From Acidobacteriota bacterium (GTDB taxonomy: Bacteria; Acidobacteriota; Thermoanaerobaculia; Multivoradales; Multivoraceae), in contig JAPPCR010000005.1 of NCBI GenBank assembly GCA_028875725.1, positions 7,501 through 71,500 on the forward strand: a stretch of 64,000 nt of DNA, in the 5' to 3' direction. The notes below the pieces were generated by a model. The model was not told where the DNA came from and did no database searches. It worked only from the letters and a program-made list of their open reading frames with translations. This document shows, in pieces, positions 21,003-26,944 of this stretch (positions are counted from its first letter, which is position 1; each line of letters starts with the position of its first letter). The position numbers were made by a program, and so were the translations under genes.

Positions 21003-21085
21003 CGTCCCCTTCTGGCCAACCCGGCAAACGCGCCAACCCGGACCGCACAACGACAGTGCTCAGCCTGGTCAGGGTCTAAGCAGGA

Positions 21086-21099
21086 CCGCTCCCGAGCGG
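21086..21099 (+). terminator. Possible hairpin terminator after the tyrS operon
   Basis: CCGCT (21086-21090) pairs with AGCGG (21095-21099) around a 4-base loop, about 85 bases after the last plus-strand gene. There is no following T-run, so intrinsic termination is uncertain; such T-poor hairpins are common in GC-rich genomes. Confidence 0.25.
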
Positions 21100-21294
21100 G
21101 GGCGAAGCGAGCGATACACGCCGTCACTTCCCTAGTGGTTCCTCGCCCTCGCGGAGCCAGAGGCGTTGAACTGACGCCGATGAAGCTCAAGAAGCGGGTC
21201 TACATCGCGCGCGGGGAGCCTCTGGGGTTGTACGACAAGTCTCTCGGCTCAGAGATTGCGTAGGCGTGGAAGTGTGGGCCAGGCTTCTCGACCT

Positions 21295-21648
21295 CTACAA
21301 CGCAACTAAGCACCAGGGGAACCGTCCGATCAGAGAGCCTGTGCGGGACTGATTGGGATTAAGAGTAGGTGCCGCCTGTTCCGTGCAGAGGCTCGTTCGG
21401 CAGCGCACCCACACCGGCTCGCAGAGCGGCAGGGCTTCGTGCGCCTTCTGCCACTTCTCGATCGTCTGGCCGGTGACCTCGAGCACGCTTGCCAGGTCTC
21501 TCGACCGCGAAGCGGCCTCTTCTTGAGGTGGTTGCACTGCACCGGCCTCAGTCCCTAGCGCCAAGCCCGTGAGCAGAGGGATGGGGATCTTGTTCGTGGT
21601 TGCCGATGCTCCTTGGATGTGACCTCTTTGTCCGTGCACGATGAACAC
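21295..21648 (-). CDS. Doubtful small exported-type ORF downstream of the PDZ pseudogene
   Basis: An open frame of 117 codons from a GTG at 21648, lying in the same orientation just downstream of the frameshifted PDZ gene. The first 17 residues look random. From residue 18 the sequence NKIPIPLLTGLALGTEAGAV resembles a short signal peptide, and AAGGAG stands 11 bases before the ACG codon at 21597, where an ATG would be expected. It may therefore be a gene whose start codon has decayed. The rest contains SRDLASVLEVTGQTIEKWQ and three Cys. No family recognised; it could equally be a chance frame. Confidence 0.2.
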   Translation of the reverse strand: MFIVHGQRGHIQGASATTNKIPIPLLTGLALGTEAGAVQPPQEEAASRSRDLASVLEVTGQTIEKWQKAHEALPLCEPVWVRCRTSLCTEQAAPTLNPNQSRTGSLIGRFPWCLVAL

Positions 21649-21808
21649 GGCCGCTTCCTGCGGCTAGAACGTGCACGAACTCCTTTCGCGGCTCTTCAAA
21701 CCCACCTCCAAACGCAAACGGCCGCGCCTTTCCAAGGGAAGGCGTGTGAGCAGGCTCTCGGATCGTCAACTTGCCGCCGCCGGCGTGGGCCGTGACGAAT
21801 CTGACGCG

Positions 21809-22241
21809 TCAGGGCGGCAGGTCCTCGATTCCATTGGTCAGCGCAGAGTCCGCGCAGGGCAGCGCCGCTTCATTCTTCGCCGCTAGGTCTTTCGGGGGCT
21901 CTACAGGCACCACGACCGCGGAGAGGTTCCTTCCTTCGCGTCGGAAGGCAAGCTCGACCGGAACCCCTACCCTTACCGTGCGCCGCGCGGTGTCGAGCGC
22001 CTCGCGATGTGACGCGAATCGCACCTCGGTTCCCGAGATCATCGTCAGGACATCAAACTCCATGATGCCGGCTGTTTCAGCAAGGACTATCCGGCACCAC
22101 GTACGCGACGGTAAGCAGCCCCGAGGTCGGATCGACGTGGAACCCGAACCCCAGGTAACCCGGCTTCTCGGATGCCCCGACAGCCTGTGCCACAAGGCAC
22201 AGACCGAGAGTCAGAACAAGACCAGTCAAGCGCTTCCGCAT
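21809..22241 (-). pseudogene. Secreted PDZ-domain protein, disrupted by a single-base frameshift
   Basis: The ATG at 22241 follows AAAGGAG and opens a signal peptide (MRKRLTGLVLTLGLCLVAQA), then KPGYLGFGFHVDP and LLTVAYVVPDSP. That frame stops at 22077-22079. An overlapping frame continues exactly where the first leaves off: AETAGIMEFDVLTMISGTEV, then GVPVELAFRREGRNLSAVVV, ending at 21809. Joined, these give a 143-aa protein with one PDZ domain (VVPDSPAE-x-AGI-x-x-x-DVL is the usual carboxylate-loop region). The span is 433 bases (3n+1). One extra base, most simply one of the two As at 22082-22083, explains it. It is either a true pseudogene or a sequencing error. Confidence 0.75.
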
Positions 22242-22253
22242 CGAATTTCTCCT

Positions 22254-24500
22254 TTACTGATCTATTTGGTTTTCTGCCCATGGCACGACGGTGGCCGGTA
22301 TACATGCCTCACGGTCAGACGGACACCACTGGTACGTTCCGGGGGACAGATCGCGGACGACGATCTCGTCGCCATCATCCACGACGGCACTAGTGAGGCT
22401 CCTGAGCCGATCCAGTTCGATTCCGACTCCCGAATCGGTAAGGAGTCGGCCACCCAATGGTCGCCTCGGTAGCCGGAGATCACCTCTGATCTGGTCCAGC
22501 TTCACGGTGATCACGCCGCCAGTCACCTCCTGCCGCACACCTGTCGCGCCAAACTCGTTTGACCAAACGAAGATATCCACCGTCGAAGTCGGAGCAGGAA
22601 GCCAGAACACACCTTGTCCGTCCAAGGACATCGGCGACTTCCCAGCTACGGCCGATCCGGACCGAACCCACACCGCCGCTCTTCTTATCGGAGCACTGCC
22701 TGAATGGACCGCCACCCGGACCTCTTGCTGCTCTCGTAGGCGCAACTCCACTTCGGGAGCCGTGAGACCCTCGTCGACGCGGAACTGTACATTGCCGGAC
22801 GCGAGCATCACTTCCCCTCGCCTTGACACCTCGGCAGATGCCAAGAAGTTCCCGGCGGGCAGCCCCTCGACTGAGAAACCACCGGATTCCTCCGATCGCG
22901 TCACCCAAGGCCCGATGCCGAGGTCTCCCTCTTCAAATGTCCTCTGCGTACGCCTGATCCTTACCTGGACACCCTCGACTCCGCGGAGAACATCTTCCTC
23001 GAGGGCGACAACGCGACCGTTCACTCGACCTGCTGGTAGATCGATGTCGATGCGGGCAACGCCGTCGTCATCCGCTTTGGCCTCGATGAATCCGACGTGC
23101 TCGACAGTCGCCGCGTCGAGTCCCTGCCAACCTCGTTCCCACGGCCCCTCGCAGGGGTCGCACTGCGGCTCAGCCGTAAGCTCCAGCCACCAGTCGCTCT
23201 CTCGAGGCAAAAACCCTTGGAAGACGCCATCTTCCCGACTCCGCATCGCCACTCGCTCGACACCGGACATGCCCCCGAACCACAGCATGGCACCTTCCAC
23301 CGGGTCACCACCACGGCGTAGGATGCCGTCGACGGGTAGCAACTCGAGTTCCAGGACGGTGTAGTCCATCCCAAGGAACCTGATCAGCTCCTTGTGGTAG
23401 CGGTCCCCCTGTTGGTTCGACACTTCAAGTTCGTAGTACCCCTGCGGCAAGCCAGCCCAGATGAAGAGGCCGCCTTCGGATAACTCCCCTCCAACAGGAG
23501 TACCGTAACTTGCGACTTCGTCCTCATCATCCAACTCAACAGGCACAGCGTTTACGGCAAGGCCAGTCAGTGCGCCTCCCTGCTTGCCCCTGAGTTCGAC
23601 AGTCAAACGGTTCAGGGCCGAACCCTGCAGGTCGCCCAAGTCGATCCAATCCCCAAGAGACTCGATGTGAACTGGCCACCGGTCCAGTGGCGAATCCACG
23701 AGCCTCAAAGAGAATCGCCCAGGAGAGAGCCCCTCGAACAAGAACGAACCATCTGCCGAATCGGTCCACGTTGCCACCGGAATGCGCCCGTCATCCGCGG
23801 CCAAGTAGACCGCCGACGCCGGAGAGCCGGCCACCCGACCAATGACTGTCGTGCCGATCCTCGGTTCGTCCAACTCGAAGGTCAGATCCTCGGAGTTATC
23901 CGTGACGGTCGTCGTCCACGCCTGGAACGGACCCATCCAAACACGAAGGGTCACTGTCTCACCCGCGGCAAACGGACACGTGACGAGCAACTCCCTCCCG
24001 CCCTCCGTCCACTCACCATCGCACGGGCCACGGTAGAGGCCGGGTGGCAGCCACCTTCCTGGCGTCCACACCCGACCAAGGACGTAGAGATTCTCGCGAG
24101 CAAGCCGCTCCAATGCCCGTTGTGAACTGCGGACCCGTAGGACGATCCTGCGCTCTGGAACCAGGAATAGTGGGTCCAGCGCACCTCCGGGCGGCACATA
24201 CACCGATGGGGACCAAGCCCCTGGGGCTGTCGCCCGAACTACCACGCCGACCTCTGAAGCGGGAACCTCGACCCTGAATCCTTCCAACGCCAACCCGTAA
24301 GCGGATTCCCATGAAGCGATCACTTCGCGGGTGATCGGGTCGAGTACCTGGAACGTCGCCGACTGCAAGTCCGCCAACTCCCGGCTAGCAACCCCGGCGA
24401 CCTTCAACTCGATCTGCGCCAGAGTCGGAGACGATGACCAGAAGAGCGGGATCAAGCAAAACGCGGCCAGTGCGGCAGGTCCTGCAGCTCGGTACTGCAT
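22254..24500 (-). CDS. Exported multi-domain protein with carboxypeptidase-regulatory-like beta-sandwich repeats
   Basis: About 748 aa. The signal peptide is AALAAFCLIPLFWSSSPTLAQ. The mature protein is a series of beta-rich, Ig-like or CarboxypepD_reg-like modules, recognisable by repeated DGSFLFEGLSPGRFSLRL, GGLFIWAGLPQGYYELEV and GGFSVEGLPAGNFLASAEV units. No catalytic motif is visible. Such modules usually mediate binding or form scaffolds on secreted and surface proteins. The frame extends to an ATG at 24638, but that N-terminal part is an out-of-frame reading of the preceding small gene; the ATG at 24500 before the signal peptide is chosen. It lies 14 bases after the upstream peptide gene and 12 bases before the PDZ pseudogene, so one transcript is likely. 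Confidence 0.75.
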   Translation of the reverse strand: MQYRAAGPAALAAFCLIPLFWSSSPTLAQIELKVAGVASRELADLQSATFQVLDPITREVIASWESAYGLALEGFRVEVPASEVGVVVRATAPGAWSPSVYVPPGGALDPLFLVPERRIVLRVRSSQRALERLARENLYVLGRVWTPGRWLPPGLYRGPCDGEWTEGGRELLVTCPFAAGETVTLRVWMGPFQAWTTTVTDNSEDLTFELDEPRIGTTVIGRVAGSPASAVYLAADDGRIPVATWTDSADGSFLFEGLSPGRFSLRLVDSPLDRWPVHIESLGDWIDLGDLQGSALNRLTVELRGKQGGALTGLAVNAVPVELDDEDEVASYGTPVGGELSEGGLFIWAGLPQGYYELEVSNQQGDRYHKELIRFLGMDYTVLELELLPVDGILRRGGDPVEGAMLWFGGMSGVERVAMRSREDGVFQGFLPRESDWWLELTAEPQCDPCEGPWERGWQGLDAATVEHVGFIEAKADDDGVARIDIDLPAGRVNGRVVALEEDVLRGVEGVQVRIRRTQRTFEEGDLGIGPWVTRSEESGGFSVEGLPAGNFLASAEVSRRGEVMLASGNVQFRVDEGLTAPEVELRLREQQEVRVAVHSGSAPIRRAAVWVRSGSAVAGKSPMSLDGQGVFWLPAPTSTVDIFVWSNEFGATGVRQEVTGGVITVKLDQIRGDLRLPRRPLGGRLLTDSGVGIELDRLRSLTSAVVDDGDEIVVRDLSPGTYQWCPSDREACIPATVVPWAENQIDQ

Positions 24501-24514
24501 TTCGGGCGCAACCT

Positions 24515-24826
24515 TCACATTTCGAGTGGGCCGAAGTCTCCACATGCTCCGGTGATGGTCTCGCAGGTTGTGGTCGTCGTGCACACTATCCGCGGGACGA
24601 GGAAACCGGCGACCATCATCCAACCCTTGATCTCGCACTCCTTGTCGACCCGTTCCATGCAGCTAGCTTGGCCCGCTACAGTCGAACCTTGTGAGCATCC
24701 ATTCTCGTTGCATTCGGCGTTGCATTCACTTCCAACGGCTGGCTGCGTAGGCACCAGGAGCCCAAAGAACAGGATGGCCAATGCTGCGTCACGTACTGGC
24801 GTGGACCTCTTGAAGAACGCCCGCAT
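24515..24826 (-). CDS. Small secreted 8-cysteine protein, copy 2
   Basis: A 103-aa protein with a signal peptide (MRAFFKRSTPVRDAALAILF..., cleavage near AVGS). Its mature part of about 70 residues has 8 cysteines spaced C-x3-C-x4-C-x11-C-x7-C-x17-C-x5-C-x6-C and ends in CTTTTTCETITGACGDFG. It is a tandem paralogue of 24895-25188. The main difference is a longer, hydrophobic fifth loop (KGWMMVAGFLVPRIV). An even Cys count and export suggest a disulfide-stabilised extracellular peptide. No family is recognised, so function is unknown. The ATG at 24826 matches the start of the paralogue. Confidence 0.7.
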   Translation of the reverse strand: MRAFFKRSTPVRDAALAILFFGLLVPTQPAVGSECNAECNENGCSQGSTVAGQASCMERVDKECEIKGWMMVAGFLVPRIVCTTTTTCETITGACGDFGPLEM

Positions 24827-24894
24827 GGTGGAAGCCCCTTCCTCTCGAGTTGACCGTCGATGGCGTCTCCGCGCTACTTCGGTTCCCGCGAAAG

Positions 24895-25188
24895 TCACAT
24901 TTCGAGTGGGCCAAAGTCCCCACATGCCCCGGTGATCGTATCGCAGGTTGTGGTCGTCGTGCATACCGGCCCAGGCTTCTCTGGATCGTCGACACATACC
25001 TTCCTGGATGTCGTCCTGCAGCCGCCTTGGCCCGTTACGGTTGAACCTGCTGACGTGCATCCACGCTCGTTGCATTCGTAGGAGCAGTCTCCTGCAACGG
25101 CGATCTGGGTGGGCACCAAGAGCCCAAAGAATAGGATGGCCAAGGCCGCGTCACGCAGCGGCGTGGACCTCTTGAAGAACACCCGCAT
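24895..25188 (-). CDS. Small secreted 8-cysteine protein, copy 1
   Basis: A 97-aa protein with a signal peptide (MRVFFKRSTPLRDAALAILF..., cleavage near AVAG). The mature region has cysteines spaced C-x3-C-x4-C-x12-C-x7-C-x10-C-x5-C-x6-C and the same terminal CTTTTTCDTITGACGDFG as the downstream copy. Signal peptide and C-terminus are almost identical between copies while the middle has diverged, including NERGC and DDPEKPGPVC here. It is the first gene of the cluster. GGGAGG lies about 9 bases before the ATG, and an inverted repeat lies further upstream (25215-25259). Function unknown. Confidence 0.7.
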   Translation of the reverse strand: MRVFFKRSTPLRDAALAILFFGLLVPTQIAVAGDCSYECNERGCTSAGSTVTGQGGCRTTSRKVCVDDPEKPGPVCTTTTTCDTITGACGDFGPLEM

Positions 25189-25214
25189 GGTCGAAAGCCT
25201 CCCTCTTGTGGATG

Positions 25215-25259
25215 CTACAGCCCGTCGCCGACGGCTCATCCGCAACGATCCGGCTGTAG
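25215..25259. promoter_or_regulatory. Nested inverted repeat upstream of the 8-Cys peptide cluster
   Basis: CTACAGCC (25215-25222) and GGCTGTAG (25252-25259) are perfect 8-base inverted arms. Between them CCGTC (25222-25226) and GACGG (25230-25234) form an inner hairpin. It lies 27-71 bases before the ATG of the first peptide gene, so it could be an operator or a leader structure. No clear -35/-10 pair was identified near it. Confidence 0.35.
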
Positions 25260-25510
25260 ACTGGGGTGAACCTACTCCATGCCAAGACCACCGGTCACCC
25301 CCAATTTGCAGGTGGTCATTCGTAGGGGTCTGGGCATGAACGCCGAGGTGTTTCCGTCAGCGCGTCGTCGTTCTTCGCACAGCGGACACTTCGCCGTACT
25401 TGGAGCGGGAAGAAGTGAGTGCCCACTCCCCATTACCCGACCGAGCGCCCCAAGGTCCGCTGGGAGCCCTCCCCCTGAGCCCCTCCGCGGGCGGGTGCGC
25501 ACCGACGCCG
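25260..25510. other. Intergenic stretch without a recognised feature
   Basis: Lies between the Cys-rich cluster promoter region and the 3' end of the transporter gene; both genes are read on the minus strand. Several short frames exist, but they have no start signals or protein-like composition. A small GAGT/ACTC hairpin occurs near 25424-25435 but has no T-run. Confidence 0.4.
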
Positions 25511-26944
25511 CTACGCCTTCGACGCGCGCTTCCTCAATCCGCGCAGGAAGACGCCGTTGAGCGCGATCAGCACCGCGGCAACGACGATCCACTGCGCGAA
25601 CATGTTGCCCACGCCAAGCGGGCCCCAGAGCGGCTCGTTGCGGACGCTCCAGATCATCCAGACGACGAGCACCAGGGCTTCGACCACGATCAGCCGGATC
25701 ACCCAGTCCCACCACGCGCCGATCCTCATGTCCTGGTCGCCGGTGTTGATCATCTCGGCACGGAAGCGGGTGACGCCGTAGCGGATCACGATCAGGGCGA
25801 AGGAGAGTCCGCAGAGCATCAGGGCGACGCTCCAGACGTTGTCCTGGTTCGACCAGAATGGCTGCCAGAGCGCCGAGGGCACGCCGAGCACGAAGGCGGC
25901 GACCGCGATCGAGACGATGGCCTTGCGCCGTTCGAGCCCCGCCTCCTCGAGTGCCAGGCCGACCAGTTGGAACATCGCGACCAGGGACGTCCAGGCGGCG
26001 AAAACCAGGGCCATGAAGAACAGGATCATGAAGAACGAGCCGCCCGGCATCGCGTTGAAGAGCTGGGGTATCCAGACGAACGTCAGGCCCTCGTTGCCGG
26101 CGCCAACGATCTGGTCGCGAGCCCCGGGCATGATCGAGAAGACGGTGCAGAGCACCATGATGCCGGCCAGCAGGGAGACGCTGTTGTTGCCGAACGCGAG
26201 CAGGAAGGAGTTCAGGTTCGTGTCCTCCCGGCGACGCGAGAACACGGCGTAGGTCAGCACCAGGCCCCAGCCGGCGCCGGTGTCCCAGGCGTTCTGGGTC
26301 AGCGCCTGCAGCCAGATGTTGACGTCGAGCAGGTCGCTCCAGTTGGGCCTGAACAGGAACTCGAGACCGTTCACCGCACCCGGCAACGTCACCGCCCGGA
26401 TGGCGAGCACCACGACCAGCACCAGCAGCGCCGGCATCAGGATCCGCACGACCGCCTCGATCCCCCGGATCCCCTTGAGCACGACGACCACGGCCATCGC
26501 CAGGGCCAGAGCGTGGAAAACGAGCACCTGGGGCGTATAGGAGAACTGGTCCCAGAGTTCGCTCGAGGCTTCGCCCCTGAGCTGCATCGTGATGGCGGCC
26601 AGCAGGTAGCGCAGCGTCCAGCCCATGACCACCGCGTAGTAGAAGCCGATCGCCGCGGCCACCCAGGCGATCCAGGCGCCCATCCAGGCGAACCGTTCGC
26701 CCAGCATCGCGGCGAAGGTACCCACCGTGCCGCTGCGCATCTTCTTGCCCAGGGCGAACTCGGCCAGGATCAGCGGCACCGACCAGAGCAACAGGAAGAC
26801 GACCCAGGCCACGAGGAAGGACCCGCCGCCGTTGGAAGCCGCGATCCGCGGGAATCGCCAGATGTTGCCGGTGCCGACGGCCATGCCGAGCATGGCGAGC
26901 ATCAGGCCCCACCGGCTGGAAAATAGTTGGGTCGCCGTGGTCAA
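25511..26944 (-). CDS. Neurotransmitter:sodium symporter (NSS/SLC6-type) family transporter
   Basis: A 477-aa integral membrane protein with about 11-12 hydrophobic segments. The N-terminal GLMLAMLGMAVGTGNIWRFP is the NSS signature (unwound TM1 substrate/Na+ site), and GAGWGLVLTYAVFS and NSVSLLAGIMVLC fit TM6/TM7 of LeuT-like proteins. Bacterial members take up amino acids with Na+; the substrate here cannot be told. The start is a TTG at 26944, as no ATG or GTG precedes the first membrane segment. It lies 75 bases downstream of ndk in the same orientation. Confidence 0.88.
   Translation of the reverse strand: MTTATQLFSSRWGLMLAMLGMAVGTGNIWRFPRIAASNGGGSFLVAWVVFLLLWSVPLILAEFALGKKMRSGTVGTFAAMLGERFAWMGAWIAWVAAAIGFYYAVVMGWTLRYLLAAITMQLRGEASSELWDQFSYTPQVLVFHALALAMAVVVVLKGIRGIEAVVRILMPALLVLVVVLAIRAVTLPGAVNGLEFLFRPNWSDLLDVNIWLQALTQNAWDTGAGWGLVLTYAVFSRRREDTNLNSFLLAFGNNSVSLLAGIMVLCTVFSIMPGARDQIVGAGNEGLTFVWIPQLFNAMPGGSFFMILFFMALVFAAWTSLVAMFQLVGLALEEAGLERRKAIVSIAVAAFVLGVPSALWQPFWSNQDNVWSVALMLCGLSFALIVIRYGVTRFRAEMINTGDQDMRIGAWWDWVIRLIVVEALVLVVWMIWSVRNEPLWGPLGVGNMFAQWIVVAAVLIALNGVFLRGLRKRASKA

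Follow-up and report, generated by a model that had tools for sequence, protein, structure and literature searches.

Among described systems, the closest to the gene cluster analyzed here are CarboxypepD_reg/prealbumin-like proteins, proteins in which CarboxypepD_reg repeats are fused to a PDZ domain, transmembrane serine/threonine (Ser/Thr) kinases with an outer sensor and, in their gene order, bacteriocin and microcin operons. The cluster lies in a stretch of 64,000 nucleotides (nt), referred to below as the window, from an Acidobacteriota bacterium of the class Thermoanaerobaculia (GenBank assembly GCA_028875725.1, contig JAPPCR010000005.1, positions 7,501 to 71,500 of the forward strand), and comprises two genes for small cysteine (Cys)-rich peptides, one gene for a protein of 748 amino acids (aa), called the scaffold or partner, and a broken PDZ gene. 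No publication on this peptide-scaffold module or on its parts was found in the open-licence literature searched. A gene for a predicted-exported Cys-rich peptide directly before a gene for a ~750-aa partner recurs across the class, and on the strength of this recurrence we propose, at a probability of roughly 0.45, that the partner likely binds the peptide outside the cytoplasm. The extracellular location rests on predicted signal peptides, which were called by a home-made rule combining hydropathy with cleavage-like residues.

Peptide and scaffold genes across the class

The preliminary description of this DNA raised the co-occurrence of the peptides and the 748-aa protein in conserved order, and this was borne out both in the genus and across the class. 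Loci were fetched for many of the scaffold matches listed and contained 146 scaffold open reading frames (ORFs) in 136 loci, of which 133 were kept (a match of at least 550 and 400 nt available upstream). The window's own scaffold is excluded from this set. Two genomes that fall outside the class (L289 and L290) are counted in its non-genus part, and at least one of the entries retained, L162 (1253 aa), resembles a TonB-type protein rather than a member of the family. A peptide was counted if it was Cys-rich, carried a predicted signal and had its gene end within -200 to 150 nt of the scaffold match. By this measure a predicted-exported Cys-rich peptide lies upstream of 68 of the 112 full-length non-genus scaffolds and of 7 of the 21 genus copies, whereas the same detector, applied to 187 control genes of the non-genus loci, gave 3 upstream hits, of which one is a real module peptide. 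The spacing is short, falling between -30 and 60 nt in 59 of 75 cases. Without the loci that were fetched for PDZ hits, the peptide precedes 64 of 106 non-genus scaffolds, and widening the range to 330 nt upstream or 160 nt downstream raises the full count to 81 of 112. No peptide was found fused to a scaffold, as none of the scaffolds scanned holds a 60-residue stretch with at least five Cys. A conserved third gene was also considered and rejected, none recurring by eye among the up to two nearest downstream genes of the non-genus scaffolds. In a subgroup of three loci (L283, L284 and L287) the peptide gene lies downstream of the scaffold gene, and its product has 13 Cys and a conserved tail containing PNG.

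Within the genus, the peptide gene lies upstream and a PDZ gene often downstream of the scaffold gene in L053, L054, L059, L060, L067 and L069, while L057 has the peptide and no PDZ gene and L055 the PDZ gene and no peptide. Other genus copies, including one in the window's own genome (L052), are accompanied by neither and stand beside genes that by eye resemble trpA or a gene for an ATP-binding protein. The neighbours of five orphan scaffolds (L052, L056, L058, L062 and L065) have a VEVDVVVT motif in common and presumably resemble a VWFA-related acidobacterial family. Several genus copies are damaged, the damage affecting the peptide gene of L053, the scaffold gene of L055 and the PDZ genes of both L067 and the window; it may reflect assembly errors, since nearly all of these assemblies are split into several to many contigs.

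The peptides had been described as belonging to no recognized family, which holds for those scanned, as none of 14 module peptides (two from the window, two more from the genus and 10 others) passed a Pfam cut-off and none of eight passed an NCBIfam cut-off. A profile of the genus peptides, searched against 148 genomes of the class, gave nine matches at E < 1e-15, which come from seven genomes of the genus and in every case lie upstream of a scaffold. Five weaker matches (E 3e-5 to 9e-4) were found in the class, one of them upstream of a scaffold (G001:C184) and the others at G020:C45, G013:C105, G007:C371 and G147:C130. When 92 scaffold-adjacent peptides are aligned, six Cys columns emerge, each occupied in 88-92 of the 92, although aligners favour Cys columns and the 92 probably include a few spurious frames. 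The number of Cys is 6-12 in 85 of the 92, which looks structural. An early CxxC, a feature scored without alignment, is present in 72% of the 81 non-genus peptides, whereas shuffles give 16% (maximum 28%); the set used for this count and for the C-termini discussed below has 90 rows, with L053 and L052 excluded and one window peptide included. Along a 10320-aa ORF in the window's own genome (G000:C6, about 191600-213100) the peptide query found numerous weak, repeated matches (E 0.007 and up), which were taken as compositional.

Peptide and scaffold also diverge together. Among 89 pairs from 45 genomes, from which L053 was excluded for its broken peptide frame and in which internal scaffold stops were scored as X, peptide similarity and scaffold similarity between genomes are correlated at r = 0.51, whereas the correlation drops to 0.34 +/- 0.024 when partners are shuffled inside each genome, and none of 1000 shuffles reaches the observed value. 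Likewise, the nearest scaffold in another genome is accompanied by the nearest peptide among that genome's loci in 39 of 65 cases, against an expectation of 18.6. This coupled divergence indicates that the pair is inherited as a unit, which is necessary, and not sufficient, for specific binding.

The scaffold family itself is widespread. Relatives of the 748-aa protein occur in 17 of the 21 genus genomes, and a class-wide profile built from a 56-row alignment finds the ~750-aa CarboxypepD_reg-type family in 70 of 148 class genomes (E <= 1e-60), with up to at least seven relatives in one genome (seven candidates were scored per genome). In a sample of 396 genomes of the phylum, with two candidates scored per genome, two genomes outside the class also hold relatives, one full-length (G152) and the other over most of the length (G488), both with a peptide upstream. 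Several genomes carry many paralogous peptide-scaffold pairs. In the class-wide alignment C160, C175, C726 and C733 are the only conserved Cys and conserved glycines (Gly) are also present, and the aligned genus scaffolds have a conserved CDPC motif. With an earlier version of the profile, ORFs of comparable length in other families were matched in part; in two places these had a PDZ match next to them, and the contexts then fetched gave complete sets. In one complete set, L151, the peptide, scaffold and PDZ genes follow each other with 4-base overlaps. A viral origin was rejected, the scaffold profile having found no relative among the viral contigs scanned. Two further observations concern the scaffold and its fold. 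On contig C6 of the window's own genome, another scaffold relative is preceded by a Cys-rich peptide of 146 aa whose tail is rich in Lys and Arg (L294:2690-3130, plus strand). In a precomputed Pfam list, nine proteins join sigma-70 and CarboxypepD_reg domains (P0063, P0071, P0075, P0082, P0088, P0089, P0091, P0094 and P0095), two of them named Planctomycetota or Planctomycetes, and thus place another output domain on the CarboxypepD_reg fold.

One scaffold is fused to a kinase. At L153:7293-10409 (minus strand) a single 1038-aa frame contains a Pkinase domain (PF00069, 42-289, E 2.2e-50), then a hydrophobic stretch (313-337) and lastly the scaffold, and it is followed by a PDZ gene; no peptide was detected beside the fusion. 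The scaffold of this protein would form the outer part of a sensor, and from this single fusion, taken together with the peptide-scaffold pairing, we infer a peptide-binding ectodomain.

The cluster in the window and its site in relatives

The features of the cluster and of the block that contains it are collected in Table 1. The preliminary description had reported four genes with signal peptides, on one strand and separated by gaps of 68, 14 and 12 bases. The minus-strand frames, with a start at 22241 for the PDZ gene, confirm the arrangement and the gaps, and the count of eight Cys in each peptide is likewise correct, but the PDZ gene does not run as a single open frame. The two peptides are 72% identical. 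The scaffold passes the Pfam gathering cut-off of PF13620 (39.8 bits against 32.3, scored on the ORF with a longer start) and has sub-cut-off matches to SdrD_B and SpaA, and Pfam gave no kinase match in it. Against PDB, the scaffold profile matches generic beta-sandwich chains only, the best being NOMO2 (E 8.3e-18 over 110 positions), with cellulosomal scaffoldin and SdrD among the others. None of six proteins matched the PADLOC models of anti-phage defence.

Table 1. Features of the cluster and its surrounding block, in positions of the window
Feature	Positions	Strand	Description
Peptide 1	24895..25188	minus	97 aa, predicted signal peptide, 8 Cys, C-terminus GDFGPLEM
Peptide 2	24515..24826	minus	103 aa, 8 Cys, tandem copy of peptide 1
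Scaffold/partner	22254..24500	minus	748 aa, predicted signal peptide, CarboxypepD_reg-type beta-sandwich domains
Broken PDZ gene, 5' piece	22077..22241	minus	predicted signal peptide and start of PDZ domain
Broken PDZ gene, 3' ORF	21809..22195	minus	frame differs from 5' piece; 21809-22066 aligns with intact relatives
Low-GC block	21003..25515	no strand	between tyrS/PGPGW genes and SNF transporter gene; edges to about 20 bases
Stretch inside low-GC block	21003..21808	no strand	no second genome copy, no family match over cut-off

The interval was said to differ in composition from its surroundings, and it does: guanine plus cytosine (GC) content falls from 0.70 in the 10 kb flanking the block on each side to 0.62 within it, and at third positions the peptide and scaffold genes have a GC of 0.67-0.69, compared with 0.91-0.94 for tyrS, the SNF transporter gene and ndk. 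The decayed coding remnants described beside the cluster were not borne out; 21003-21805 has no other copy in its own genome, and the three ORFs of this stretch that were given to Pfam had no match over cut-off.

Of the 20 other genus genomes, three gave no tyrS match, and the tyrS flank was fetched from the remaining 17. The block is absent in 13 of these 17 relatives, where the flanks are only 5-30 bases apart. In the other four, the flanks are 197 bases apart (G019), 5.8 kb of different sequence lies between them (G001), the right flank was not found within the fetched stretch (G014), or the contig ends (G004). Because the block is missing between its flanks in relatives, it is either an insertion or has been retained in one lineage, and its composition favours insertion. 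The insert of G001 (L303:4148-9032, plus strand, on G001:C25) holds genes of 144, 447 and 1037 aa on the same strand as the window cluster. The 144-aa and 447-aa genes have no Pfam match, and the 1037-aa protein is rich in CarboxypepD_reg and matches the scaffold profile at E 8.8e-35. Many of these related assemblies presumably derive from sponges.

The downstream PDZ gene

The frame of the window's PDZ gene is lost near 22080, where the 5' piece stops at 22077 and the remainder continues in another frame, as the 3' ORF of Table 1. This break may be a real lesion or an assembly error. Against the PDZ models the 3' piece reaches 12.4 bits with PF13180 (cut-off 27) and the 5' piece is unmatched, while all five intact relatives given to Pfam (two from the genus and three from outside it) pass at least one PDZ cut-off (PF13180, PF17820 or PF00595).

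As a partner in the cluster, the PDZ protein was retained as an occasional third member only; the window copy is broken and few scaffolds are followed by such a gene. A scaffold gene is followed by a PDZ gene in 7 of 21 genus copies and in 8 of 112 non-genus copies, and six of these eight come from loci fetched for PDZ hits. A core role for PDZ was rejected, since in loci not chosen by a PDZ hit it lies downstream of 2 of 106 non-genus scaffolds. None of the scaffolds scanned is fused to a PDZ domain.

Where a PDZ gene is present, the peptide tends to end in a hydrophobic residue. For 11 of the 12 PDZ loci, compared with 25 of the 78 others, the last residue is A, V, I, L, M, F, Y or W; by clusters the counts are 7 of 8 and 20 of 60 (p 0.005). 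Two assignments in this set were made by hand, L067 being treated as PDZ-positive with its PDZ piece truncated, and the 91-aa peptide being taken for L149.

Interpretation and comparison with known systems

Under the proposed explanation, peptide and partner would leave the cytoplasm by Sec, the peptide's Cys would pair as disulfides, the partner would bind the peptide directly, and this binding would be sensed or displayed at the cell surface. The small PDZ protein, where encoded downstream, may hold the hydrophobic C-terminus of the peptide, which is the weakest step of the scheme. In the window's genome, with its duplicated peptide gene and broken PDZ gene, the working unit would be the peptides and the partner.

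Several observations weigh against this explanation. No close upstream peptide was detected for 44 of the 112 non-genus scaffolds, some of which have one farther away or downstream, and 11 of the 21 full-length genus copies have neither peptide nor PDZ gene. Coupled divergence is also expected from operons inherited whole, for which binding is not required, and the kinase fusion is found in 1 of 146 scaffold ORFs. The association between C-terminus and PDZ gene was first noticed on part of the same data; when Ala is not counted, the hydrophobic ends by clusters are 5 of 8 against 15 of 60 (p 0.043), and L245, the sole PDZ locus with a peptide that was added later, has a peptide ending in Ser.

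The same loci can be read in other ways. The peptide may be a small structural or adhesive subunit that decorates a wall- or matrix-like scaffold, with no sensing involved. The sub-cut-off SdrD_B and SpaA matches, the resemblance of the scaffold profile to cellulosomal scaffoldin, SdrD and NOMO2, and the numerous paralogous pairs of several genomes, such as surface coats would have, are consistent with an assembly of this kind, but the single kinase fusion points to sensing and no sortase or secretion gene recurs among the downstream genes listed, as far as their sequence starts tell, so that we consider this reading possible but doubtful. It is unlikely, in our estimation, that the peptide is a bacteriocin-like exported toxin and the adjacent gene encodes a periplasmic protective or carrier protein. 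A protein of 750 aa would be very large for an immunity protein, no PADLOC match was obtained, and no exporter or lysis gene was seen by eye to recur among the at most two downstream genes listed for the non-genus loci; on the other hand, the peptide-first, partner-second order with its short or overlapping spacing suits a toxin, and competition genes would be consistent with the variety of Cys-rich peptides, the tandem copies, the partners that stand without a peptide and a block that some genomes have at its site and others lack.

The early CxxC of the peptides and the CDPC motif of the aligned genus scaffolds might instead suggest a thiol- or metal-handling mini-protein for which the large protein is merely the anchor. 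This is very unlikely, as CDPC does not appear in the columns conserved across the class-wide scaffold alignment and the usual number of Cys in the peptides looks structural. An incidental linkage, in which members of an abundant CarboxypepD_reg family happen to stand beside unrelated short ORFs, gains something from the frequency of spurious ORFs in high-GC genomes and from the home-made nature of the detector, but it is disfavoured by the control genes, the common Cys framework and the coupled divergence, and we regard it as extremely improbable.

If the preferred reading holds and the partner binds the exported peptide, the two may be ligand and receptor, and would then represent a bacterial counterpart of peptide-receptor signalling; if the peptides are toxins, they would form a new class of exported peptide. 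In either case, a recurrent pair whose peptides are matched by none of the family models scanned would be a sizeable undescribed share of what these bacteria export. A more far-reaching version, which we consider rather improbable, is a class-wide peptide-receptor system in which disulfide-rich exported peptides and their ~750-aa ectodomains form private ligand/receptor pairs that diversify, are kinase-wired in some lineages and are swapped as cassettes at shared chromosomal sites, with the PDZ protein clipping the tail.

Each known system matches the module in part. Bacteriocin and microcin operons similarly encode a small exported peptide before a partner gene, but the module differs in its predicted Sec signal peptide and its very large partner, and no exporter was noticed among the downstream genes listed. 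The transmembrane Ser/Thr kinases with an outer sensor (PknB-like) are approached by L153, which joins a Pkinase domain, a membrane-like segment and the scaffold, whereas the window protein is without a kinase and such a fusion was found once. In the fused proteins P0050 and P0053, CarboxypepD_reg repeats followed by a C-terminal PDZ domain mirror the order of scaffold gene and PDZ gene, but these proteins, of 886 and 1002 aa with 8-9 CarboxypepD_reg stretches, are unlike the ~750-aa type. To the CarboxypepD_reg/prealbumin-like proteins (PF13620; SdrD_B and SpaA) the window's scaffold is tied by a score above the PF13620 cut-off and by weak sub-cut-off matches to related folds, while the ~750-aa family to which it belongs is set apart from them by conserved Cys and Gly of its own and by the Cys-rich peptide encoded upstream.

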